The translations under genes and the position numbers were made by a program. DNA of 64,000 nt from assembly GCF_004364865.1 (NCBI RefSeq), contig NZ_SOAU01000001.1, forward strand, positions 1,550,001 to 1,614,000, written 5' to 3'. Under the pieces are notes generated by a model. It worked only from the letters and a program-made list of their open reading frames with translations. It searched no databases and was not told where the DNA came from. Below are positions 8,814-59,334 of this stretch, one piece after another. Numbering within the stretch: the stretch's first letter is position 1; each line of letters opens with the position of its first letter. Source of the DNA: Ilumatobacter fluminis. Its GTDB lineage: Bacteria > Actinomycetota > Acidimicrobiia > Acidimicrobiales > Ilumatobacteraceae.

Positions 8814-8990
8814 GGGTCAGGTGTCAAAGGTGACGGCGAGGAACGAGCCGTTACCGGCGATCACTTGACCCGGGATCGGTGCGCGAACCGGTGGGAACGA
8901 GTCGCTTGGCCAGGTCGCAGGACCCCGGGTCAGGTGACCGTCGGTAACGGGTTCGGCTGCGCCTCACCCGTCACCTCTGGCACCTGACCC
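8814..8990. repeat. Inverted pair of GGGTCAGGTG-type intergenic repeats (copy A)
   Basis: The 316-nt gap between the antiporter and coxB is mostly this element. A 58-bp unit (8814-8871) and a 64-bp unit (8927-8990) each begin GGGTCAGGTG and end with the inverse (CACTTGACCC or CACCTGACCC). They are inverted copies of one another: both contain a GGTGACGG block and a GTTACCG block. About 55 nt of unrelated sequence separates them. The units resemble the GGGTCGGGTG family at 13.8, 58.0 and 59.3 kb but carry A in place of G. The rest of the gap (8740-8813 and 8991-9055) shows nothing clear beyond a weak TACGAG promoter-like element at 9046. Confidence 0.85.
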
Positions 8991-12591: not shown

Positions 12592-12983
12592 CGACGGCGC
12601 ACCGTCCGGTCGACACGCTGGAGGCGCCGCACGAACCGGTGGTTCCCGCACCGTCGTCGTGGCGTCTGTGGGTGCTGTTGCTCGGCGGGCCGTCGCTGTG
12701 GTTCGCCCACTTCATGATCGTCTACCTCGCAGCCGAAGCGGTGTGCACGCCGAAGCTCATCGGCGACGACCAGCCCTGGTCGGACGCGACGCTCGACCGA
12801 TTCGTCGTGGCGTCGACGGTCGTCGCAGTCGCGCTGTGTCTCGCTGTCGCAACGCTCTCGTGGCGTCGACTTCGTCGCGAGCCCGGCCAGTGGCTGTGGT
12901 GGGTGTCGATCACCCTCGGGATCGGCTCGGCGCTCAGCGTCATCGCCGTCGGGTCGTCGACGCTGGTGGTCGGCGGATGCTGA
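12588..12983 (+). CDS. Small membrane protein of the caa3 oxidase operon
   Basis: A 131-residue protein starting at a GTG that overlaps the stop of the subunit I-III gene and ending within the start of the CtaG-like gene. Three hydrophobic segments are seen: VLLLGGPSLWFAHFMIVYLA, VASTVVAVALCLAVATL and WWVSITLGIGSALSVIAV. The WFAHFMIVYLAAEAVC motif, with His and Cys, looks conserved. I do not know a named family. Its position between oxidase subunits and an assembly factor suggests a small subunit or assembly helper of the oxidase, which is inference from context. Confidence 0.72.
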   Translation: MTTAHRPVDTLEAPHEPVVPAPSSWRLWVLLLGGPSLWFAHFMIVYLAAEAVCTPKLIGDDQPWSDATLDRFVVASTVVAVALCLAVATLSWRRLRREPGQWLWWVSITLGIGSALSVIAVGSSTLVVGGC

Positions 12984-13864
12984 TCTCACACGGCACACTC
13001 GAGCACGGCACCCTCGGCGACTGGGCGCTCGACCCGGTCGCGATCGCCGTCACGGTCGGGGTCATCGGCCTCTACGTCGTCGGTCGGCGACCGGGGCACG
13101 ACGCGCCCTGGCGCCTGGCCGCCGTCGTGATCGGTGTCCTCGTCTCGTTCGTCGCCGTCGTGTCGCCACTGCACGTCGCCGCCGAGCGGTCGTTGGCATG
13201 GCACATGGTCCAGCACGTGCTGTTGATCGGCGTCACCGCACCGTTGCTCGCCGTGGCGGCACCGTGGCCGGCGTTGGCGCGTGGTCTGGGGGTGCGCGGC
13301 GTCGGCGCCGTGTCGTCCGCACGGCGACTGGTGGGTCTCGACGTCGCGCGGATGCGTCGACTGCGGAGTCCGCTCGCTCGCTGGTTGCTGTTCGTGTTCG
13401 TGTTCTGGGGCTGGCACTCGGCGCGGCTGTACTCGCTTGCCGTCGAGAACGAGTGGGTGCACACGATCGAGCACGTCTCCTTCGTCGTCGCGGCGTTGTT
13501 GGTGTGGTCGGCGGTGCTCGGTCCGGAACGTGCCGGCGGCAACGCCGATCCTGCGATCCGGGTACTCGTGGCGTTCCTGCTGGGGCTCCAAGGGGTCCTG
13601 CTGTCCGCGCTGCTGACGTTCGCCCCGTCGCCGTGGTACGGCGTGTACGTCGACCGGCTCGGCGCCGACGACGCGCTGGCCGACCAACACATCGCCGGCG
13701 TGCTGATGTGGGTGCCGCTCGGCGCGCTCATCACCGTCGCCGGCATCTGGGCCGCCATGACCTGGATCGGCCCCGACGACGAACCGGCGAGGAGCGAGCC
13801 GGGTCGGGTGTCGCAGGGAACGGCGACGGAGTCGACGTTTCCGGAGATCACCCGACTCCGGTGA
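12977..13864 (+). CDS. CtaG-like (caa3 CtaG family) cytochrome oxidase assembly protein
   Basis: A 295-residue polytopic membrane protein of the caa3_CtaG type, associated with copper insertion or assembly of caa3 oxidases in Gram-positive bacteria. Family features are MVQHVLLIGVTAPLLAVAAP, FWGWHSARLYSLAVEN with conserved His, IEHVSFVVAALLVWSAVLG, and DQHIAGVLMWVPLGAL near the end. The His residues on the helices are the proposed metal ligands. The start is the ATG at 12977, overlapping the previous stop. The last 19 or so codons, after the Pro-Asp-Asp-Glu stretch, are read from one arm of an intergenic repeat (13801-13858), so this tail is acquired sequence and not ancestral. Confidence 0.87.
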   Translation: MLISHGTLEHGTLGDWALDPVAIAVTVGVIGLYVVGRRPGHDAPWRLAAVVIGVLVSFVAVVSPLHVAAERSLAWHMVQHVLLIGVTAPLLAVAAPWPALARGLGVRGVGAVSSARRLVGLDVARMRRLRSPLARWLLFVFVFWGWHSARLYSLAVENEWVHTIEHVSFVVAALLVWSAVLGPERAGGNADPAIRVLVAFLLGLQGVLLSALLTFAPSPWYGVYVDRLGADDALADQHIAGVLMWVPLGALITVAGIWAAMTWIGPDDEPARSEPGRVSQGTATESTFPEITRLR

Positions 13865-13941
13865 CGTGGGTTCGCGACCGGGTCGGGTGATCTCCCGAAA
13901 CGTCTCGGCTGCGCCTCGCCGTTCCGTACGACACCCGACCC
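13801..13941. repeat. Inverted pair of GGGTCGGGTG-type intergenic repeats (copy B)
   Basis: A 58-bp unit (13801-13858) and a 62-bp unit (13880-13941) lie as inverted copies around a 21-bp centre. Each unit carries GGGTCGGGTG at one end and CACCCGACYC at the other. The shared inner words are GAACGGCGA and the GGAGATCACCC end. The left unit lies inside the coding sequence of the CtaG-like protein, whose stop (13862-13864) comes just after it. The same unit recurs at 58048-58111 and 59277-59334. Confidence 0.9.
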
Positions 13942-16177: not shown

Positions 16178-19100
16178 ATGACCACACCATTGCACCGTCT
16201 CGGCCGGCTGGCCGTTGCAGCCGCCGTCGCCGCTGCGTCGGTCGCGCTGATCACGGCGTCCGATGCCGGCGCCGAACCGGCGACCACCGCCGGATTCGAC
16301 GTGTCCTACGACGATCGTGTCTGGGGAGACTTCATCCTGGCCGGCAACACGCAGGTTCGCTGCGTGACGGCGGGCGACCTCGACGTGAACGACGTCGACG
16401 GCGACGGCAACACCACGGAGCCCGTCGGCTCGGCTGTGGGTTGGTCGTTCTACGCCGAATGCCTGAACGACGCCACGCGTGACACCTTCGGCACGCCGCA
16501 GGCACCGAACGACCAGCGCTGGATGGTCCATCAGAACGTCGACCCGGGCGCCGGGCTGTTCAACTCGTCCTCGGCGACGATCGCCGTTCCTCCGGGGGCC
16601 ACGATCGCGTCGGCCGAGCTGGTGTGGCACGGCAACAACGGTGAAGCGAACAGTGTCGGCCTCAACCAGACACAGATCGATCTGATGGACGCCGGAGAAC
16701 AGATGGCAGCGTTCGGTGCGGCCGGCACCTCGCCGTGGCCGTCGTGCCAATCGAGTTCGACGGTCATCGACTGGGGCACCTACGGCACTCCGGTCGCCTG
16801 GGCAACCGCTCCGCTGGTCGCCGCACGTCAGAACGCCGCCTGGGCAGCGATGACCGGCCGCGACCGCACACAGGTGCAGGTGCAGCTGGGGAGCAGCGCC
16901 GGCTATCAAACGGTCACGTCGACGAGTGGCCAGATCGGTTCGCCGCACATGAGCGGCCAGCTCTATCAGGAGTCCGCCGACATCACCGACCTGCTCGCCG
17001 CCGCACTCCCCGGCGATGGCAGTCCGCTCGAGATCACCGTCGGCGACATCTTCACGCCCGAAGGATTCAACTGCACCGGTGGCTGGTACACGATCATCGT
17101 CTGGGAGTACCCGACGCTCGAACCGACCTACGCGCCGGAACTGCGCCGGGTCCAGATCTGGGACGGTTTCGCCGAGGTCGCCGACGGCGCCTCCGAGTCA
17201 TTCAGCCTGAACGGTTTCCTGGCGGCCCCGGGTTGGGTCGTCGAGCCTCGTGCCGCCTCCGTCGGTTACGAGGGTGACCAGCAGATCGCCGGCGACTCGC
17301 TCCTGCTCAACGGCCTCCCCGTGGTGGAGCCCCGAGTGAGTGGCGGTGTCGCGACCGACAACTTCTACGCCTCGACGATCGGTGAGTTCACCGATTCCAC
17401 CGTCGGAGACTTCACCCGCTCGAACCCCGAGATCCGCGACGCCGCAGGGATCGACATCAAGACCGTGCCGGTCGCCGCAGCGGCGCTCAACTCCGTGCTC
17501 GACGGCCTTCCCGTGACCTTTCAGACTGCCGGCGACCGCTATGCCGCGTCACTGTTCGTCTTCTCGGCGAAAGAAGCGGTCCTGAGCGGCACCACCTACC
17601 ACGACGTGGACGCCGACGGGGTGTTCACGCCGGGTGTCGACACCCCCATCGAGGGCGTCGAAGTCACCCTGACCGGTACCGACGACCTGGGTGACCCGGT
17701 CTCGATGACGGCGACGACCGACGAGAACGGCTTCTACGTGTTCGTCCAGGTGCCGGCCTCCGACCTGACCGGATACACGCTGACGGAAACGCAACCTGCG
17801 AACTACCTCGAGGGTGAGGCGACCGCCGGCACCATCGGTGGCGTCGTCGACACGACCAATCAGGTCTCCGGGATCGTCTACGACCCCTTGGTGGGTGCGT
17901 CCGGCTATGACTTCGGTGAGATCATCCCGGCCTCGATCTCGGGTTCGGTCGTCGACGACAGCGGCAACGGCATCGCCGGCGTCGACATCACGCTGACCGG
18001 GATCGACCACGACGGGAGTCCGGTGCTCATCGTCGTGCAGACCGATGCCAACGGCGACTATCTCTTCGACGGTCTGCTCCCCGGGACCTACGTCGTCACC
18101 GAAACGCAACCGCTCGGCTACGGCGACGGGATCGAGACCGTCGGTTCGGCCGGTGGCGACATCTCGACGAACGACGTCATCGCTGCCATCGTCGTCGATC
18201 AGGGCGACGCGTCGACCGGCAACGACTTCGCCGAGACCACTGGGTCGGTGTCCGGCTCCGTCGTCGATCAGAACGGTGATCCGATCGCCAACGTGTCGAT
18301 CGCACTGTCGGGCACCGACGTCGATGGCGCCGTCGCCGTCACGACGACGACCGATGCAAACGGCGACTACCTCTTCGACGGCTTGCTCGCGGGCACGTAC
18401 ACCGTGACGGAGACGCAGCCTGCCGGTTACCTCGACGGTGACGAGACCGCCGGCTCGCTCGGCGGTGACATCTCGACGAACGACGTGATCGCCGCCATCC
18501 CGCTGCTCGGTGGACAGGACTCGATCGACAACGACTTCGCCGAGTTCCTGCCGTCGACGATCGCCGGGTCGGTCGTCGACCAGGACGGCGTCGGCATCGC
18601 CGGGGTCGGGATCACCTTGTCCGGAACGAACGTGAGCGGCGACGTCGTCACCCTGACGACCACCACGGATGTCGACGGCGACTACTCGTTCACCGACTTG
18701 CTGCCCGGTACGTACATCGTGACCGAGACGCAGCCCGCCGGTTACCTGGACGGTGACGAGACCGCCGGTTCGCTCGGCGGTGACATCTCGACGAACGACG
18801 TGATCGCCGCCATCGTGCTCGGCGCGAATCAGAGCTCGACCGGGAACGACTTCGCCGAGTACCAGCCCGCCTCCATCTCCGGTTCGGTCGTGGACGATTT
18901 CGGCAACGGCATCGCCGGTGTGGAGATCGTCCTGTCGGGGACCGATGTGAACGGCGGTCCGGTGTCGGCGTCGACCACGACCGACGCGAACGGCGACTAC
19001 TCGTTCACGAACCTGCTGCCCGGTGCCTACGACGTTGCGGAGACGCAGCCGACCGGTTACGGCGACGGTGCGGAGACGGCTGGTTCGACCGGTGGTGACA

Positions 19101-22100
19101 TCTCGACCAACGACGTGATCGCTGCGATCCCGCTGGCTGGTGGTCAGGACTCGGTCGACAACGACTTCGCCGAACTGACGGGAGCGATCTCGGGTTCGGT
19201 CGTGGACGACTTCGGCAATCCGATCGCGCGTGTCGAGATCGTCCTGACCGGCACGGATGCGAACGGTGATCCGGTGTCGGCGTCGACGACGACCGACGCA
19301 AACGGTGACTACGTCTTCGACGGCCTGCTGGCCGGTACCTATGAGGTTGCGGAGACGCAGCCGACCGGTTACGGCGACGGTGCGGAGACTGCCGGCTCGA
19401 CCGGTGGTGACCTCAGCACGAACGACGTGATCGCTGCGATTCCGCTGGCTGGTGGTCAGGATTCGGTCGACAACGACTTCGCCGAGACGACGGGTTCGGT
19501 CTCGGGTTCGGTCGTGGACGATTTCGGCAACGGCATTGCCGGTGTCGAGATCGTTCTGACCGGCACGGATGCGAACGGCGACCCCGTATCGCTGACGACG
19601 ACGACCGACGCCAATGGTGACTACATCTTCGAGAACCTGCTCGCCGGGACGTATGAGGTGGCGGAGACGCAGCCTTTGGGTTATGGCGACGGTCTCGAGA
19701 CGGCTGGTTCGACCGGTGGTGACATCTCGACGAACGACGTGATTGCAGCCATCCCGCTCGCCGACGGTGAGGATTCGGTCGACAACGACTTCGCCGAACT
19801 GACGGGAGCGATTTCGGGTTCGGTCGTGGACGACTTCGGCAACGGCATCGCCGGTGTCGAGATCGTCTTGACCGGCACGGATGTGAACGGCGACCCCGTG
19901 TCGCTGACGACGACGACCGACGCGAACGGTGGCTACATCTTCGAGAACCTGCTCGCCGGGACGTATGAGGTGGCGGAGACGCAGCCTGTGGGTTATGGCG
20001 ACGGTGCCGAGACGGCTGGTTCGACCGGTGGTGACATCTCGACGAACGACGTGATTGCAGCCATCCCGCTCGCCGACGGCGAGGTCTCGGTCGACAACGA
20101 CTTCGCCGAGACGACGGGAGCGATTTCGGGTTCGGTGGTCGATGACCTCGGGAACCCGATCGCGGGTGTCGAGATCGTGCTGTCGGGGACCGACGTCAAC
20201 GGCGACCCGATGTCGCTCACGACGACGACCGACGCCAATGGAGACTACGTCTTTGACGGCCTTCTGGCCGGTACCTATGCGGTGGTGGAGACGCAGCCGA
20301 CCGGTTACGGCGACGGTGCGGAGACTGCTGGTTCGACCGGTGGTGACATCTCGACCAACGACGTGATCGCTGCGATCCCGCTGGCTGGTGGTCAGGACTC
20401 GGTCGACAACGACTTCGCCGAGACGACCGGTTCGATTTCGGGTTCGGTCGTCGATGACTTCGGCAATGGCATCGCCGGGGTGGAGATCGTCCTGTCGGGG
20501 ACCGATCTGAACGGTGATCCGGTGTCGGTGTCGACGACGACGGACGCGAACGGTGACTACGTCTTCGACGGCCTGCTGGCCGGTACGTATGAGGTGGCCG
20601 AGACGCAGCCTGCGGGCTATGGCGACGGTGTCGAAACTGCTGGTTCGACCGGTGGTGACATCTCGACCAACGATGTGATCGCTGCGATCCCGCTGCTCGA
20701 CGGTGAGGTGTCGACGGACAACGACTTCGCCGAGACGACGGGTTCGGTCTCGGGTTCGGTCGTGGACGACTTCGGCAACGGTATTGCCGGTGTCGAGATC
20801 CTCCTGTCGGGGACCGATGTGAATGGTGATCCGGTGTCGGCGTCGACGACGACCGACGCGAACGGTGACTACGTCTTCGAGAACCTGCTGGCCGGGACGT
20901 ATGCGGTGGCCGAGACGCAGCCGACCGGCTACGGCGACGGCGTCGAGACGGCTGGTTCGACCGGTGGTGACATCTCCACCAACGACGTGATCGCGGCCAT
21001 CCCCCTCGCCGACGGTGATGATTCGGTCGACAACGATTTCGCCGAGACGACCGGTTCGATCTCGGGCACCGTCGTGGTCGACGGCGACGGCGACCCGATC
21101 GCCGGCGTCGAGATCGGCCTCACCGGCACGGACGCCAACGGCGACCCCGTGTCGCTGACGACGACGACCGACGCGAACGGTGACTACACCTTCCACAATC
21201 TGCTCGGTGGCGACTACACCGTCACCGAGACCCAGCCCGACGGCTACGGCCAGGGCGCCGTCAACGGCGACGACACCGAGGCCGTGCTGCTCCCGGCGGG
21301 CGACGACGCCGTCGTCGACTTCTCGGAGGCCACCGGTTCCATCTCGGGCTCGGTCGTGGATCAGAACGGTGACCCCATCGAGGGCGTCGAGGTGGCACTG
21401 GCCGGCACCGATGTGAACGGTGAACCGGTGTCGCTCACGACCTCGACCGACGCCGAAGGTGACTACCGCTTCGACGACCTGCTGGCCGGTGACTACACCG
21501 TCACCGAAACCCAGCCGTCCGGGTTGCTCGACGGCCCGGAGACCGTCGGCTCGACCGGTGGTGACATCAGCACGAACGACCTCATCGCCGACATCCCGCT
21601 CGCCGGCGGCCAGGACTCCGTCGACAACGACTTCGCCGAGTACCGGCCGTCGGGCATCGCCGGGTCGGTCGTCGATCAGGACGACATCGGCATCGCTGAC
21701 GTCACCCTGACGCTCACCGGTACCGACGTGAACGGTGACCCGGTGTCGTCGACGACCACGACCGACGCCGACGGCAACTACCTCTTCGGTGATCTCCTCC
21801 CCGGCACGTACACGGTGACCGAGACCCACCCGTCGGGATATCTCGACGGCCACGAGGAAGCCGGTTCCACCGGTGGCGACATCAGCACGAACGACGTGAT
21901 CGCCGACATCCCGCTGCAAGCGAACGAGTCGTCGTACGGTCACGACTTCCACGAGTTCGTCCCGGCGTCGATCGAGGGATCGGTCTTCGTGGACGGCGAC
22001 GGTGAACCCATCTCCGGCGTCGTGATCACGTTGACGGGCACCGACGTGAACGGTGACCCGGTGGAGATCGTGACGACCACGGATGCCGATGGCGACTACT

Positions 22101-23017
22101 CCTTCGTCGATCTGCTCCCCGGCAGCTACGTCGTCACCGAGACACAGCCCGACGGGTACGGCGCCGGCGCCGTCACCCCGGACAACTCGATCTCGATCGA
22201 ACTCTCGGGAGGCGACGAGTCGAAGGACAACGACTTCTCGGAGTCGACCGGCTCGATCTCCGGCACTGTCACCGACGATCAGGGCCGACCGCTCGTCGAC
22301 GTCGAGATCACGCTGACCGGGACCGACGTGAACGGCGGCGACATCGAGCTGGTGACCACGACCAACTCGACCGGTGACTACGTCTTCGGTGACCTGGTCG
22401 CTGGTGACTACACGGTGACCGAGACGCAGCCCGACGGCTACGGCCCGGGTGGATCCGCCGCCGGCTCCACCGGTGGCGACGACGGCATCAACGACATCGT
22501 CGGGATCGAGCTGCCCGGCGGCGTCGACTCGGTCGACAACGACTTCGTCGAGGAGACCAGCACGGTGTCCGGCGTCGTCCGAGACGACGACGGCAACCCG
22601 ATCGCCGGTGTCGATGTGAGCCTGAACGGCACCGACGTGAACGGCGACCTCGTGGCGCAGAGCACCACCACGGGCAGCGACGGCAGCTACGTGTTCCCCG
22701 GCATCGTCGCCGGTTCGTACACGATCACCCAGACCCAGCCCAACGGCTACAGCAGCGTCACCGCCATCCCCGGTTCGACCGGCGGTACGGCCGACGGCAC
22801 GGACGTCATCACGTCGATCACGGTCGGCGGCGGCGAGGACTCGGAGGACAACGACTTCGTCGAGACCCGGACGGTCATCCGGATCTCGAACGAGCGCGAG
22901 CTGCCCTTCACCGGTGGCAGCGCCGGTGATCTCGCCCGAGTGGCGATGCTGCTCGCACTGATCGGTGGCGTCCTGCTGCTCGCCGGCCGACGCCGGCGCG
23001 AGGGCGACATCGCCTGA
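16178..23017 (+). CDS. Giant cell-wall-anchored protein with 17 SdrD-B-like repeats
   Basis: A 2279-residue secreted surface protein. A signal peptide (about residues 1-34) contains a hydrophobic stretch rich in Ala and Val and ends near DAGA. Residues 35-466 form a Trp/Tyr-rich domain that I cannot place. Residues 467-2232 hold 17 repeats of 94-119 residues, mostly exactly 104, of SdrD-B/Cna-B type. Typical marks are SGSVVDD.G, TDANGDY, LLAGTY.V.ETQP and GGDISTNDVIAAI, with acidic loops suited to Ca2+. The tail has LPFTG (2242-2246), a hydrophobic helix and RRRRE, a sortase sorting signal. It is probably an adhesin or surface stalk. Start at the ATG at 16178. No sortase gene lies in the window. 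Confidence 0.9.
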   Translation: MTTPLHRLGRLAVAAAVAAASVALITASDAGAEPATTAGFDVSYDDRVWGDFILAGNTQVRCVTAGDLDVNDVDGDGNTTEPVGSAVGWSFYAECLNDATRDTFGTPQAPNDQRWMVHQNVDPGAGLFNSSSATIAVPPGATIASAELVWHGNNGEANSVGLNQTQIDLMDAGEQMAAFGAAGTSPWPSCQSSSTVIDWGTYGTPVAWATAPLVAARQNAAWAAMTGRDRTQVQVQLGSSAGYQTVTSTSGQIGSPHMSGQLYQESADITDLLAAALPGDGSPLEITVGDIFTPEGFNCTGGWYTIIVWEYPTLEPTYAPELRRVQIWDGFAEVADGASESFSLNGFLAAPGWVVEPRAASVGYEGDQQIAGDSLLLNGLPVVEPRVSGGVATDNFYASTIGEFTDSTVGDFTRSNPEIRDAAGIDIKTVPVAAAALNSVLDGLPVTFQTAGDRYAASLFVFSAKEAVLSGTTYHDVDADGVFTPGVDTPIEGVEVTLTGTDDLGDPVSMTATTDENGFYVFVQVPASDLTGYTLTETQPANYLEGEATAGTIGGVVDTTNQVSGIVYDPLVGASGYDFGEIIPASISGSVVDDSGNGIAGVDITLTGIDHDGSPVLIVVQTDANGDYLFDGLLPGTYVVTETQPLGYGDGIETVGSAGGDISTNDVIAAIVVDQGDASTGNDFAETTGSVSGSVVDQNGDPIANVSIALSGTDVDGAVAVTTTTDANGDYLFDGLLAGTYTVTETQPAGYLDGDETAGSLGGDISTNDVIAAIPLLGGQDSIDNDFAEFLPSTIAGSVVDQDGVGIAGVGITLSGTNVSGDVVTLTTTTDVDGDYSFTDLLPGTYIVTETQPAGYLDGDETAGSLGGDISTNDVIAAIVLGANQSSTGNDFAEYQPASISGSVVDDFGNGIAGVEIVLSGTDVNGGPVSASTTTDANGDYSFTNLLPGAYDVAETQPTGYGDGAETAGSTGGDISTNDVIAAIPLAGGQDSVDNDFAELTGAISGSVVDDFGNPIARVEIVLTGTDANGDPVSASTTTDANGDYVFDGLLAGTYEVAETQPTGYGDGAETAGSTGGDLSTNDVIAAIPLAGGQDSVDNDFAETTGSVSGSVVDDFGNGIAGVEIVLTGTDANGDPVSLTTTTDANGDYIFENLLAGTYEVAETQPLGYGDGLETAGSTGGDISTNDVIAAIPLADGEDSVDNDFAELTGAISGSVVDDFGNGIAGVEIVLTGTDVNGDPVSLTTTTDANGGYIFENLLAGTYEVAETQPVGYGDGAETAGSTGGDISTNDVIAAIPLADGEVSVDNDFAETTGAISGSVVDDLGNPIAGVEIVLSGTDVNGDPMSLTTTTDANGDYVFDGLLAGTYAVVETQPTGYGDGAETAGSTGGDISTNDVIAAIPLAGGQDSVDNDFAETTGSISGSVVDDFGNGIAGVEIVLSGTDLNGDPVSVSTTTDANGDYVFDGLLAGTYEVAETQPAGYGDGVETAGSTGGDISTNDVIAAIPLLDGEVSTDNDFAETTGSVSGSVVDDFGNGIAGVEILLSGTDVNGDPVSASTTTDANGDYVFENLLAGTYAVAETQPTGYGDGVETAGSTGGDISTNDVIAAIPLADGDDSVDNDFAETTGSISGTVVVDGDGDPIAGVEIGLTGTDANGDPVSLTTTTDANGDYTFHNLLGGDYTVTETQPDGYGQGAVNGDDTEAVLLPAGDDAVVDFSEATGSISGSVVDQNGDPIEGVEVALAGTDVNGEPVSLTTSTDAEGDYRFDDLLAGDYTVTETQPSGLLDGPETVGSTGGDISTNDLIADIPLAGGQDSVDNDFAEYRPSGIAGSVVDQDDIGIADVTLTLTGTDVNGDPVSSTTTTDADGNYLFGDLLPGTYTVTETHPSGYLDGHEEAGSTGGDISTNDVIADIPLQANESSYGHDFHEFVPASIEGSVFVDGDGEPISGVVITLTGTDVNGDPVEIVTTTDADGDYSFVDLLPGSYVVTETQPDGYGAGAVTPDNSISIELSGGDESKDNDFSESTGSISGTVTDDQGRPLVDVEITLTGTDVNGGDIELVTTTNSTGDYVFGDLVAGDYTVTETQPDGYGPGGSAAGSTGGDDGINDIVGIELPGGVDSVDNDFVEETSTVSGVVRDDDGNPIAGVDVSLNGTDVNGDLVAQSTTTGSDGSYVFPGIVAGSYTITQTQPNGYSSVTAIPGSTGGTADGTDVITSITVGGGEDSEDNDFVETRTVIRISNERELPFTGGSAGDLARVAMLLALIGGVLLLAGRRRREGDIA
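17933..22873 (+). repeat. Tandem coding repeats R2-R17 (about 312 bp each)
   Basis: Sixteen direct repeats sit inside the giant surface-protein gene; a more divergent R1 precedes them at 17576-17932. Unit starts are 17933, 18245, 18557, 18872, 19184, 19496, 19808, 20120, 20432, 20744, 21056, 21338, 21653, 21968, 22253 and 22562. R2, R3, R5-R11 and R17 are exactly 312 bp. R4, R13 and R14 gain one codon, R16 loses one, and R12 and R15 lose about ten near the GDISTND region. R5-R11 are almost identical at DNA level, which fits recent duplication or gene conversion. Confidence 0.92.
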
Positions 23018-51404: not shown

Positions 51405-54400
51405 TTACAGCGCGCCCCGCTCAAGCAGGGTCGTGCGCAGGCGGGCGTACTCCGGCGTCTCACTGAGCTCGTCAGCCGCTCGGATCAGCTCGACGGCTCG
51501 CTCGACGTTCCTGCGCTTGTCCCACTCATCGGACGGCCCTCGGATAAGGCCGTTCATGATCGCGAGCGTCGTCGTGGAAGGTTGAAGCGATGCCGCTCGC
51601 TCCGCCACCTTGTGCGACCAGTCGATGCGACCACTCGTTACATCAAGCGTGGTCATCGTTCGGCTGGCCCACAAGTCAGTGTCGAGTTGGCCGACCTCAG
51701 CGAACCACCCGAAGCCGGGGAGGGCATCAGGATCTGCCGTTGAGTTTGCGGCATCCCAGAAGCTCACGGCCGTTGCGACCAGTGCTTCTTCAGCATCGTC
51801 ATGCCGCAACAGCCGCCCCAGGCCCTCGCCAGCATCGGATAGCAGCGCTGGCGTCTGGCGTAGGAAGGCGATGTTCTCCTCCACGCTGTATCCGGTGACC
51901 GTCCACAGCATGGCGATCATGAGGTGGTCGAGAGCGTTGTCAACGTTGCGAGAGACCGCATCGAGGAGGAGCGGGCGGTATCGCTCGAACAGCCACCGGT
52001 TGGGGCGCCCCCATTTGATGGCAACGTCGGCCGTGACCTGGGCAAGGTCCGGCGGGGCGTCGTCGCCGAACATCAGATCAGCGGCGTCATCGACCCACTG
52101 CGGTGCGATGTGGCGGAGGAAGCCCAATCGGGTTGCGATGATTGCTCGGTGTTCGGCACCGTCTGATCCCTCGAGACGCAGCGCCTCCTCGAGCAGGTCG
52201 AATGCCGCCTGTCTCGCTGTTCCAGTGATCCGGAACTCGTGGGCCATGAACGAGAGAACTACCTCGAGCGCTCGGGTGCAGCGACGGTTGATTGCATAGT
52301 CGAGCGGGTCACGCGCCTCACTGACGATCGCCGATGGAGCGCCACGATTGCGAGCCTCAGCGGCGAGGACTTGCCACACCTCGTCGTCACGCCCGCCGAA
52401 GCCGAGGTCCTTGTCGGCCATCCCCTTGAGGACATCGACTGCAGCCTGTTCGGCGCCGCTCCAGTCATGGTCGTAGTCGAAGTCGTCTCGGCCCAGCGGT
52501 TCGATTACCCAGGGGTGTGCGCGCACTAGGCCGATGACGTCGAGAATCTCTGCGATCGGGGGGCGCGCGCCGTCCTCGATTGCTTGTGCAACGCTGCGGA
52601 GGTAGTGGTGGATGTACGTGGGCTGGCGTAGCTCCGTCGCGATCTGAACCGGGGAAGCGATCCAAGCCGTGGAATCGGCCTTGACCAATGCCTCGAGCGT
52701 GCGAGCCAGCTCTCGCGCGCTCACAAGCCACTCCGAACCGTCCGGACGCCATTCGGCGACCCTGCGAACGGCTTCCGACACGGGAAGGGCCGCCAACTCC
52801 TCCAATGAGATCGGGCTTCGCCCGGTTCCCCCCACGACGCGACTCCGCTTCTCCAGCGTCGCCCGTACGGGTCGACCAAACGCGCCGGCGATCACGGCGG
52901 CTGGCTGTGCCCAAGAACCGATCGCTTCCTCAGGTAGGAGTCCAGTCCAGTGGTAGGCGCGAAGCCATTCCTCCGTCAGCTCGTGCGAGGGCAATCGCTG
53001 CGCGACTTCAACGACCGTGGGGGCAGGCCCGAGGGCAGCGAGCCAAGGTTCCGTGTACTCTCGAGTCGCCGCTTCGGCGACGACCCGATCCACGATCGGG
53101 AGGTCATCCCCAGTCGGGTCCCGGTGGCTGATAGCGACCGACAGCTCTTCGATCAGAACGTCGAGAGTGGTGTCGGGCGATGTGGAGAGCACCCACGCCC
53201 GAAGGCGACCACGGACCTCGATCGGCAACGAGTCGATGATTGCGAGAATCTCGTCGGTCGACACCCATTCGCGAGCTCGCCGGATGACGTCGACGAGAGC
53301 CTCGAGAAGACTGGAGAAGCGGTCATCCCGATGATCGTCCGCCCAGTCCGCAACCGATCCGGCTCGCTCGAAGCTGAACCACCTCGCATGGCCTTCTTCG
53401 GATGAGGCTGCCGACCGCAACTTCCATGAGAGCAGCTGGATACGGCGTGAAGCGTTCGACTTCGCCGTGCCGTCGACGAGCCGTTCGACAACGGGGTCGA
53501 CGTGGTACGCCGCGTGCCAGGGTGCGTCGTTCAGAAGCACATCGGCGAGCTGTTCGACGAGTGGCGACTCTGGCTCGAACTCCTCGATGGCGAATGGTCC
53601 GATCGTTGCGATCCCCGACACCGACCCGTGGTCAACAAGCGCTCGCAGCAGAACAGCCGCCGCATCGGGACCCACGTCCGCAGCAGCTCGAGCCACGAAC
53701 CACGCTCTACCGGCGTCGGTGGGATGACGGTCGTACATGGCGTCGAGCCATGACCCAACGAGTGGACCGTGATCGGGCGCCACTCGGTCCACGGCAGCGA
53801 ACACCGGCCACGGCTCGCCGTCGGCGGGCGGATCGAGGATGCCGGTATCGATGAGGGCGTAGAGCCACTGCGGGGTCGCGATCCTGCTGAGGAAGTGCCG
53901 TAGGTGGTTCGGCCCAGCAATCAATGGGAGTAGACGGTGGACGTCGTCCGCCGAGGGTGACTCGACCGCGGCGAGCGACTCCAACTCAAGGTGCCTCACT
54001 TCCGGAGGGAGGAACAACTGCCGGAGTATTGCTGCGCAACCACCCCAGAGTTCCCGAGCACGGTCCATCGACGAATCGCCATGCAGCGCCTCGTCGAGTT
54101 CACCTAGCAGGTCCTGATACTCCTGGATCGGTGCGGTGCCCGACGCAACCGGTAACGCACCCGTGCGGTTCACCATGACCGCAATTAGGCGACGTTCGTG
54201 AATGCCCTCCTGAGAGTGAACGAGGTCAAGATCGCCGATCGCCGCGAGGAGGTCGTCTAGGGCGCCTTCTGCATCCTCACCGGGCAAGCCACGTACGAGT
54301 TCGTAGCGGCGGCGGGCATCGGTGACCGCACGCGAAGCTGATCGCCATAGGCCTCCGCCGCCGACGGGTTGGGACGCAGGGATGGTCTTCATTGCCTCGC

Positions 54401-54566
54401 GTAGGCAGTACGTGATCGCTTCGGGCAGACGTGGCAGCGACTCCGTCGAGTCGCCGCTCAGAAGGGCGTGGGCGGTCTGCAGGAATCCGACCGCGCGCTC
54501 CCCGTGGCCACCGAACTCGACCGCAAGGTGGTCGAGCAGCTCGGGATCGATCGGGTCTTGCCTCAT
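51405..54566 (-). CDS. Large alpha-helical protein of unknown function (island cargo)
   Basis: A 1053-residue soluble protein, predicted by eye to be almost wholly helical, with repeated Leu/Ala/Trp helix pairs as in an alpha-solenoid (for example LEELAALPVSEAVRRVAEW, WVDDAADLMFGDDAPPDLAQVTADVAIKWG and RNVERAVELIRAADELSE). There is no Walker motif, nuclease motif, signal peptide or membrane helix. I do not recognise a family. The start is the ATG at 54566; a GTG at 54584 would add six residues. Large helical scaffold or sensor proteins are common in bacterial defence islands, but that link is speculative. It is divergent from the coiled-coil gene and converges on the nuclease-like gene. Confidence 0.72.
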   Translation of the reverse strand: MRQDPIDPELLDHLAVEFGGHGERAVGFLQTAHALLSGDSTESLPRLPEAITYCLREAMKTIPASQPVGGGGLWRSASRAVTDARRRYELVRGLPGEDAEGALDDLLAAIGDLDLVHSQEGIHERRLIAVMVNRTGALPVASGTAPIQEYQDLLGELDEALHGDSSMDRARELWGGCAAILRQLFLPPEVRHLELESLAAVESPSADDVHRLLPLIAGPNHLRHFLSRIATPQWLYALIDTGILDPPADGEPWPVFAAVDRVAPDHGPLVGSWLDAMYDRHPTDAGRAWFVARAAADVGPDAAAVLLRALVDHGSVSGIATIGPFAIEEFEPESPLVEQLADVLLNDAPWHAAYHVDPVVERLVDGTAKSNASRRIQLLSWKLRSAASSEEGHARWFSFERAGSVADWADDHRDDRFSSLLEALVDVIRRAREWVSTDEILAIIDSLPIEVRGRLRAWVLSTSPDTTLDVLIEELSVAISHRDPTGDDLPIVDRVVAEAATREYTEPWLAALGPAPTVVEVAQRLPSHELTEEWLRAYHWTGLLPEEAIGSWAQPAAVIAGAFGRPVRATLEKRSRVVGGTGRSPISLEELAALPVSEAVRRVAEWRPDGSEWLVSARELARTLEALVKADSTAWIASPVQIATELRQPTYIHHYLRSVAQAIEDGARPPIAEILDVIGLVRAHPWVIEPLGRDDFDYDHDWSGAEQAAVDVLKGMADKDLGFGGRDDEVWQVLAAEARNRGAPSAIVSEARDPLDYAINRRCTRALEVVLSFMAHEFRITGTARQAAFDLLEEALRLEGSDGAEHRAIIATRLGFLRHIAPQWVDDAADLMFGDDAPPDLAQVTADVAIKWGRPNRWLFERYRPLLLDAVSRNVDNALDHLMIAMLWTVTGYSVEENIAFLRQTPALLSDAGEGLGRLLRHDDAEEALVATAVSFWDAANSTADPDALPGFGWFAEVGQLDTDLWASRTMTTLDVTSGRIDWSHKVAERAASLQPSTTTLAIMNGLIRGPSDEWDKRRNVERAVELIRAADELSETPEYARLRTTLLERGAL

Positions 54567-54910
54567 GCGCTGATTGTGGCGCACGCCACTGGGGTGATCT
54601 CGTCAGATTATGGCCAGCATGGAATCGCAGACGGGGCGAGACCTCAACGGAGTTGGCACGGCCTCGGTTCCGACGGACGATGCGAACGGGCGCAATGTCG
54701 GGAGGCAGACGACGCGTCTGGGCAGGGGGCGTGAGCGGACTGAAGGAACTGGTAGGACGAAACTCCTCCTCTGATCACGATCCGGGAGGGTCTCCGGGAA
54801 CCAGGAGCGGTCGCTGCGAGTGTTTCCGGGAACTCGGAAAGCGCATTCAGGAGGGTTTCCGGGAATCGGGAACTCGAGTCTGATTGGTTCCCGAGTGAGA
54901 AGAGCGTCAG
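54567..54910. promoter_or_regulatory. Divergent control region with repeated TTCCGGGAA words
   Basis: The 344-nt region between the large helical protein gene and the coiled-coil gene has no ORF I would accept. Its right half repeats a word several times: GGGTCTCCGGGAACC (54788-54802), TTTCCGGGAACTCGG (54823-54837), GGGTTTCCGGGAATCGGGAA (54853-54872) and, inverted, GGTTCCCGAG (54886-54895). The spacing is about 33 bp between successive centres. The words could be operators for an island-encoded DNA-binding protein or iteron-like sites. Confidence 0.5.
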
Positions 54911-58021: not shown

Positions 58022-58047
58022 GCGTTCGTCGTTCGCGCACCCGACCC

Positions 58048-58111
58048 GGGTCGGGTGATCTCCGTGAACGCGTTGCCCCGGGGGCGAGTCGTCCCCTCCG
58101 ACACCCGACCC
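58048..58111. repeat. GGGTCGGGTG-type intergenic repeat (copy C)
   Basis: A 64-bp unit begins GGGTCGGGTGATCTCCG and ends GACACCCGACCC. It is immediately preceded by CACCCGACCC (58038-58047), which forms a perfect 20-bp palindrome with its first ten bases. This looks like the end of a second, deleted unit in inverted orientation. It lies between the HAD gene and the AI-2E transporter gene. Confidence 0.88.
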
Positions 58112-59240: not shown

Positions 59241-59276
59241 TGCGGGGTCGGGTGCGGGGTGAGCGCACCGGTCCCG

Positions 59277-59334
59277 GAGTCGGGTGATCTTCGGAAACGC
59301 CGACTCCGTCGTCGTTCCCTACGACACCCGACCC
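59277..59334. repeat. GGGTCGGGTG-type intergenic repeat (copy D)
   Basis: A 58-bp unit begins GAGTCGGGTGATC and ends GACACCCGACCC, with the inner words GGAAACGCCGACTCCG and GTCGTTCCC shared with copy B. A free GGGTCGGGTG at 59245-59254 may be a trace of a second unit. It lies just after the AI-2E transporter gene and before the terminator. Confidence 0.88.

Follow-up and report, generated by a model that had tools for sequence, protein, structure and literature searches.

Paired-hairpin repeats of Ilumatobacter fluminis, probable REPIN-like elements of a TIRYT-class Y1 transposase

REPs are given as sequences of 20–40 bp in the accessible part of PMC3733652, and those of Escherichia coli are described, in the relevant part of PMC8266576, as needing a mismatch in their stem and as being read on one strand only by TnpA-REP. 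The TIRYT class of Di Nocera et al. (2013) is said to correspond to subclass 2.1 of Quentin et al. (2018) and to RAYT group 1 (PMC6006769, in the portions available). Di Nocera et al. report the motif GGGGWSAS at TIRYT genes and TIR families that are moderately abundant (PMC3733652, as far as its available text goes). In the available portions of Quentin et al. (PMC6006769), REP-like sequences are reported as not found beside subclass 2.1 genes, the flank motif is described as unlike a DnaA box, and the Actinobacteridae are mentioned as carrying only subclass 1.1. The Acidimicrobiia are named in the main text of neither paper (PMC3733652, PMC6006769). Searches of the open-licence literature returned no report of a RAYT for Actinobacteria, none of a tyrosine transposase for "Acidimicrobi-" and nothing on Ilumatobacter repeats with a transposase, which is not proof of absence.

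The repeats of Ilumatobacter fluminis presented here, judged from their sequence, most likely form a family of tiny paired-hairpin elements that are mobile. The probability that they are REPIN-like non-autonomous elements of a Y1 (HUH) RAYT of the TIRYT/group 1/subclass 2.1 kind is put at about 0.77. They were spotted in a window of 64,000 nt (the whole stretch of DNA analysed), where a sequence-only reading had pointed out units with inverted ends at 8.8, 13.8, 58.0 and 59.3 kb, described two of these loci as inverted pairs and likened the family to REP/BIME or MITE sequences. All four loci were found as described, and both pairs were borne out. The first, at 13801..13941, is a complete composite element of 141 nt, a REPIN-like dimer that is predicted to fold as one DNA hairpin. 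It consists of a short unit of 58 nt (13801..13858, minus strand), a spacer of 21 nt (13859..13879) and a long unit of 62 nt (13880..13941, plus strand), both units belonging to the GTCGGGTG subfamily. The second is made of a short unit of 58 nt, whose stem here is GTCAAGTG (8814..8871, minus strand), a spacer of 55 nt without assigned strand (8872..8926) and a long unit of 64 nt (8927..8990, plus strand); both units belong to the GTCAGGTG subfamily, which is that of the units beside the transposase gene. At 58.0 kb, the claim of a single unit abutting a remnant end stood for the unit, which is 64 nt long, of GTCGGGTG type and with a loop resembling those of the transposase-flanking units (58048..58111, plus strand); the adjoining "remnant end" (58030..58047) is better read, by eye, as a probable leftover of a dimer spacer. 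The fourth locus holds a single short unit of 58 nt of the GTCGGGTG subfamily (59277..59334, plus strand), near which can be recognized, by eye, the probable outer end of a lost partner unit (59245..59254, minus strand) followed by spacer-like sequence.

It had also been claimed that the units sit after or between genes. This is not true of every copy, as the unit 13801–13858 lies within an ORF of 295 aa (12977..13864, plus strand), of whose C-terminal tail it makes up most; the final 20 residues and the stop of this ORF fall within the repeat and its spacer, and a related protein from a genome of the same genus has a different C-terminal tail. The 10-bp core alone is weak evidence for such units (23 matches with at most one mismatch versus a shuffle mean of 15.3, 5 of 100 shuffles being as high), and Rfam found nothing in the window but a tRNA. 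Two other parts of the window deserve mention: a very long ORF of 2280 codons with a strong codon signal (16178-23017), and the region 49.7-56.1 kb, in which codon usage calls one gene despite long ORFs (e.g. 51405-54584, minus strand, 1059 aa) and whose composition may be different from the rest.

In the whole genome, the paired-end unit pattern is far beyond chance. The pattern searched for the first subfamily, GTCGGGTG-N30-60-CACCCGAC, has 97 perfect copies and that of the GTCAGGTG type has 60, with none for either of the backwards patterns used as controls; the family proposed from the window thus extends well beyond it. At least 166 units, 101 of the GTCGGGTG and 65 of the GTCAGGTG subfamily, are present in the 4.78-Mb genome, spread over 113 loci (61 single, 51 double and one triple). 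This census is a lower bound, because the covariance model search gave the best 150 matches (the lowest scoring 63.7 bits) and because, of seven units that the model found in 304 kb (the window, which holds six of them, together with twelve 20-kb stretches at even intervals), the one outside the window is absent from the list; two units that the 166 do not include are those at L167:6686 (55 bits) and 1,187,564. The census may favour well-preserved copies, and this may have shaped the origin bias described below. A joint pattern of both subfamilies gives 164 matches in this genome and three at most in any of the 396 other genomes of the order; the 1–3 matches seen in 27 of these were judged by eye to be due to chance, the backwards control giving similar numbers in some.

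The units are mostly 58, 62 or 64 nt long and form an imperfect hairpin. Its outer stem of 10 bp (GGGTCRGGTG/CACCYGACCC) is followed by a bulged A and two further pairs; beyond an internal loop comes an inner stem of 7 bp, which ends in a variable loop. Covariation was assessed on 18 units chosen across both subfamilies, whose cells are not independent. The 19-pair structure forms in 93.0% of the cells (shuffled mean 87.9), 18 cells are changed on both sides (6.0 in shuffles) and the covariation score is 0.140 (0.062 in shuffles), none of 500 shuffles being as high for any of the three. Two of the five measures are no higher than in shuffles for these 18 units, namely the number of pairs with two-sided change (4 versus 3.0, 147 of 500 as high) and that of further pair types (7 versus 6.6, 285 of 500). 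When the partner is slid by 1–3 columns, pairing in the same units falls to 27–49%. Compensatory changes are present. At outer pair 6, one subfamily has G-C where the other has A-T, and inner pair 1 varies between G-C and C-G among the GTCGGGTG units.

In 145 of the 166 units (84/101 GTCGGGTG, 61/65 GTCAGGTG), the 7-bp inner stem, as read on the forward strand, contains a mismatch at one pair and one only. This mismatch is mostly A-C and is located at pair 3 in GTCGGGTG and at pair 4 in GTCAGGTG; in eight units, a C replaces the A and the pair is still mismatched. On the opposite strand, the A-C turns into a G-T wobble, and this strand was the more stable in all four units folded. No GTAG or GGAG tetranucleotide is present at the 5' foot, where the 61 singles mostly carry CCC, and this missing head rules out a classical GTAG-tagged REP. 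Within the units, no DnaA box with fewer than two mismatches was found when three forms of this box were compared. The units are presumably not attC sites of integrons.

Pairing of the units follows a fixed plan. Neighbouring units less than 150 bp apart form 53 pairs, of which 49 face head to head and the other 4 tail to tail. The head-to-head spacers measure either 15–29 or 53–56 nt, these two classes being the two subfamilies, and a short unit is joined to a long one in 50 of 51 two-unit loci (p 5e-14 versus even odds). Similarity to the class medoid exceeds the 99th percentile of shuffles in all 17 long spacers and in 18 of the 31 short ones, including the spacer at 13859..13879; in the remaining 13 short spacers it does not. 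The fold, computed for one dimer (13801-13941, 141 nt), has an energy of -67 kcal/mol versus a shuffled mean of -33.3 (z -12.8). The expectation from REPINs that singlets are more diverged is borne out by the short units of both subfamilies, which are closer to their consensus in dimers than as singles (identity 0.974 versus 0.936 for GTCGGGTG, p 0.0008; 0.972 versus 0.951 for GTCAGGTG, p 0.005), and not by the long ones. For the latter, the difference is not significant in GTCGGGTG (0.963 in dimers, 0.950 in singles, p 0.13) and is reversed in GTCAGGTG (0.842 versus 0.927, p 0.008), where the consensus is a blend because the class mixes two loop types. Spacer-like sequence is kept on the 5' side of 12 of the 26 single GTCAGGTG units, which is what broken dimers would show.

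The surroundings of the units are asymmetric. A copy of the unit's own 3' arm (at least 16 of 20 nt) is found within 120 nt on the 3' side of 46 of 165 units and never in shuffled flanks. Such a copy accompanies 19 of 60 single units, none of which carries a 5'-arm copy in its 5' flank (p 4e-6); the corresponding counts in dimers are 27/105 and 5/105, a comparison that is not clean because the 5' side holds the spacer and the partner. In 22 of the 46 cases, the first nucleotides of the flank (at least 4) recur after the arm copy, where 0.3 cases are expected, which indicates that the arm and its flank were duplicated together. As slippage on naked hairpins should affect both strands, these one-sided copies suggest a strand-specific process.

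A RAYT-like transposase had been proposed as something to look for, and the genome does contain one Y1_Tnp match and only one: a gene outside the window (C1:4,552,074-4,552,889) that encodes a protein of 272 aa. Inverted GTCAGGTG units lie on both sides of this gene, no GTCGGGTG unit is beside it, and tandem partial arms of 32–36 bp extend outward, two upstream and three downstream (L016:1275-1346, 2327-2422). A single transposase framed by inverted units of the same family lends support to the REP/BIME-like part of the sequence-only reading. The residues H59, H61 and Y118, which we take to be catalytic, are invariant in an alignment of 23 sequences. The sole NCBIfam match of the protein is REP_Tyr_transpos (NF047646), at 53.4 bits, below the curated cut-off of 80. 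An exact-peptide search for named relatives of the transposase returned none. By itself, the transposase has no Pfam match in its C-terminal part and a single PDB match, which is irrelevant; ten relatives scanned singly gave weak HTH or DnaA_C matches in four cases and none in six. The profile of the 23 relatives matches DnaA chains (E 3e-6) and, weakly, TnpA-REP 4er8 (0.0066), and a C-terminal HMM built without the protein itself matches this transposase at 21.3 bits and, at 19.0 bits, the C-terminal end of the DnaA encoded in the same genome. At the profile level, the enzyme therefore combines a Y1 core with a C-terminal HTH/DnaA_C-like domain, as TIRYT/subclass 2.1 enzymes do, and this domain points to the TIRYT/RAYT group 1/subclass 2.1 class. 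In the flanks of the gene, GGGGTCAG downstream fits GGGGWSAS and CGGGTCAG upstream is one base off; the GTCGGGTG subfamily does not fit the motif.

Of the order's 397 genomes, 36, including this one, carry relatives of the transposase (matches at E 1e-8 or better, which define the carriers). At 29 other transposase loci, the flanks contain an inverted repeat longer than those in all 60 shuffles in 18 cases and do not in 11; GGGGTC/GACCCC is found on both sides at 12 of the 29, with 81 sites in total versus 31 in shuffles. A related palindrome, GGGGTCWGACCCC, which was picked after viewing the flanks of the carriers, is present in 74 genomes, one of which has 167 copies. It reaches five copies, a cut-off picked after viewing the counts, in 25 genomes spanning 9 families, that is in 25/36 carriers versus 0/361 others (p 2e-31, relatedness uncorrected); the 11 other carriers hold fewer than five copies and the maximum among the 361 non-carriers is 3. 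This order-wide count provides a palindrome signature with which such families can be sought. In genome G385, the dispersed palindromes match the repeat adjoining its own transposase. The genome of I. fluminis has 14 copies of the palindrome type around GGGGTCWGACCCC, five stretches of which were read (L173-L177), and one form present in it, GTCGGTTGGGGTC, also adjoins a different RAYT in the NAT239 MAG (L223). Copies of the GGGGTCWGACCCC type located away from the origin are those at C1:1534616, 2358656, 2468194, 2468251, 3034488 and 3224575.

Both subfamilies themselves gave no model match in 60 other genomes of the family, three of them from the same genus, with at most 88 candidates scored per genome. 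A scan of one genome per species, covering 84,980 species, found the subfamilies in three Acidimicrobiia MAGs (Ilumatobacter sp. HKST-UBA13, Acidimicrobiaceae NAT239 and Acidimicrobiia 3_bin.6), which overturned the idea of a family confined to its own species. The model matched 31 of 36 stretches from these MAGs and none of the other five, giving 57 units (109 two-strand matches merged by hand, a few of them clipped at locus ends), and the head-to-head arrangement is seen in 16 of 18 neighbouring pairs. Across the three MAGs, the two subfamilies and the dimer plan are found again; since the subfamilies coexist in two of these MAGs, their split is old. An Acidimicrobiia MAG (L198:79-253) carries a 64/58 dimer with a 53-nt spacer, so the long-spacer plan recurs between genomes. 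The transposases recovered from the three MAGs, which are possibly incomplete assemblies, are distant (34–35% identity) and one has an internal stop. Two of them (L223, L224) sit between other GGGGTC repeats; the third (L225) has no inverted repeat of at least 14 nt, its flanks showing just one GGGGTC upstream and GACCCC downstream. These enzymes are therefore only candidates for the partner of the repeats shared by the MAGs.

The distribution of the family along the chromosome peaks near the origin. The dnaA match is at 4,680,185, 128 kb from the transposase gene, and 54 of the 113 loci are within 0.4 Mb of it versus 18.9 expected (p 2e-14); the fitted peak has a scale of 295 kb and takes in about half of the loci. 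No origin peak is described in the accessible portions of the open-licence REPIN/RAYT literature that deals with DnaA or the origin. One reading, which stands at roughly even odds, attributes this bias to local hopping away from the transposase locus, or to ordinary fork or dosage effects, and not to origin targeting. Centring the peak on the transposase indeed gives nearly as good a fit as centring it on dnaA (negative log-likelihood 1706.8 versus 1705.2, uniform 1737.8, free centre 1704.5 at +107 kb from dnaA), and the advantage of 1.65 log units for dnaA is not decisive. Yet the mean position of the loci is near dnaA whichever gene centres the window: it is at +13 (se 26), -6 (43) and +43 (50) kb from dnaA in dnaA-centred windows of 0.4, 0.8 and 1.2 Mb, and at +103 (26), +83 (41) and +143 (47) kb from the transposase, towards dnaA, in the transposase-centred ones. 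This argues against local hopping and leaves fork or dosage effects untouched. A further point against this reading is the intergenic share around dnaA, which is ordinary in the stretches sampled. That the DnaA-like domain is connected with the origin peak is offered as a hypothesis. Its strong form, an origin-directed system in which the DnaA-like domain of the RAYT steers the elements near oriC via DnaA boxes, DnaA or the young replisome, is held to be improbable; if true, it would explain both the origin peak and why this class of enzymes has a DnaA-like domain. The 61 singles show no strand bias with respect to gene direction or chromosome half, the halves being split at the contig start and not at dnaA.

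A second question is whether one enzyme serves both subfamilies. The GTCGGGTG units could have been spread by a second RAYT that is now lost, the resident enzyme serving GTCAGGTG only, a proposal to which we give somewhat less than an even chance. It fits the GTCAGGTG-only flanks of the resident gene, the age of the split and the differences that set the subfamilies apart (outer pair 6, position of the stem mismatch, spacer length), and the GTCGGTTGGGGTC palindromes shared with the neighbourhood of a different RAYT also speak for it. Against this, the outer stem is otherwise the same in the two subfamilies, both contain the bulged A, both pair on the head-to-head heterodimer plan and both are distributed around the origin; moreover, the spread of GTCGGGTG looks recent, because 14 of its 58 short units are identical to their consensus, and yet the genome is without a second Y1_Tnp match.

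Placement with respect to genes bears on a reading in which the hairpins are kept as host elements, bidirectional terminators or stabilisers of mRNA 3' ends, and were copied because they are useful. Genes were called by a purpose-written codon-usage script. According to it, 156 of the 166 units are intergenic in a genome of which about 7.5% is intergenic, and the loci are located between tandem genes in 59 cases, convergent genes in 36 and divergent genes in 11, within a gene in 5, with 2 unclear. The numbers expected for tandem, convergent and divergent contexts are 62.6, 16.6 and 26.8 from intergenic bp (p 9e-8) and 68.1, 19.5 and 18.4 from the number of gaps (p 1e-4). This excess of convergent loci, a median distance of 21 bp to the 3' end of the flanking gene and the fact that the upstream stop is the nearer one at 47 of the 59 tandem loci (p 5e-6) are what host elements would show, but insertions purged from genes and promoters would give the same placement. 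The units do not fit an intrinsic terminator with a T-tract, TTTT being present close to the 3' end (at 15 nt or less) in 1/166 units, with a flank G+C of 68%. As the host-element reading also leaves the transposase between units, the heterodimer plan and the origin bias unexplained, it is considered unlikely.

The flanks of 48 dimers give no clear target-site duplication, which leaves the MITE-like half of the sequence-only reading without support. Four flanking nt are shared at one dimer (0.03 on average in shuffles and never more than 1) and exactly 2, 3 or 5–9 nt at none; if the two flanks may be offset by as much as 3 nt, four dimers share 4 nt and one shares 5 (shuffled means 2.0 and 0.7). 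One search for empty sites found no syntenic place. It is very improbable that an IS recognizing GGGTCGGGTG terminal repeats moves these units as the MITEs of a DDE transposon, in spite of outward-facing 10-bp inverted ends and a size of 141 or 177 nt, given these flanks, the hairpin and strand polarity of each unit and the presence of units on both sides of a Y1 gene.

Under the preferred reading, REPIN-like elements of a Y1 RAYT, the following scheme can be proposed. The dimer would be the replicating unit and, when exposed as a single strand, would fold into a hairpin. The transposase, a Y1 enzyme, would use the bulged A and the lone mismatch in the stem to read one strand, and would move the dimer as single-stranded DNA without duplicating the target. 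Many of the single units would be broken dimers, and GTCGGGTG would be moved by the resident enzyme or have been moved by a lost relative. The tandem copies of the 3' arm may arise from local slippage or from re-cutting at the folded hairpin, bound in a strand-specific way. Selection would then leave copies between genes, any effect on transcript ends being secondary.

Compared with the REPINs of Pseudomonas fluorescens and E. coli (GTAG-type, group 2/3 RAYTs), the family has in common, as far as the accessible parts of PMC3116915, PMC8266576, PMC8049555 and PMC2817692 describe them, short imperfect hairpins in high copy number that are mostly intergenic, spaced inverted pairs that fold as one hairpin, and a RAYT with inverted copies on either side. 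It thus has the broad traits of REPs and REPINs: palindromic and mostly intergenic units in more than about 100 copies, inverted spaced doublets and a RAYT flanked by inverted copies. It differs from REPINs in lacking the GTAG head and in its longer units (58–64 nt), in pairs that nearly always join a short and a long unit with two classes of spacers, in the DnaA-like C-terminal domain of the transposase and the copies centred on the origin, and in singles that are more diverged for short units only. The stem mismatch of E. coli REPs, read on one strand according to the relevant part of PMC8266576, has a counterpart in the single conserved mismatch seen here, whose role as a mark for one-strand recognition can now be tested, as can that of the DnaA-like domain in these transposases. 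The BIMEs of E. coli are likewise mosaics, in which units of two types alternate in orientation (PMC8266576, same part), whereas the present elements have a fixed head-to-head plan, two spacer classes and no GTAG.

The TIRtrons and TIRYT enzymes of Di Nocera et al. (2013) share with the system of I. fluminis a Y1 core followed by a C-terminal HTH/DnaA_C-like domain (PMC3733652, PMC6006769, in their available portions). As in the accessible text of PMC3733652, a GGGGWSAS motif, here GGGGTCAG, stands on one side of the gene, and TIR families of some species occur as dimers or clusters. Unlike those families, the present one comprises 166 or more hairpins that are structured, covary and take paired form. 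The repeats are closest to the GGGGWSAS/TIRYT class, not to the classical GTAG-headed REP, and this genome appears to give the subclass 2.1 class a large, structured and paired repeat family.
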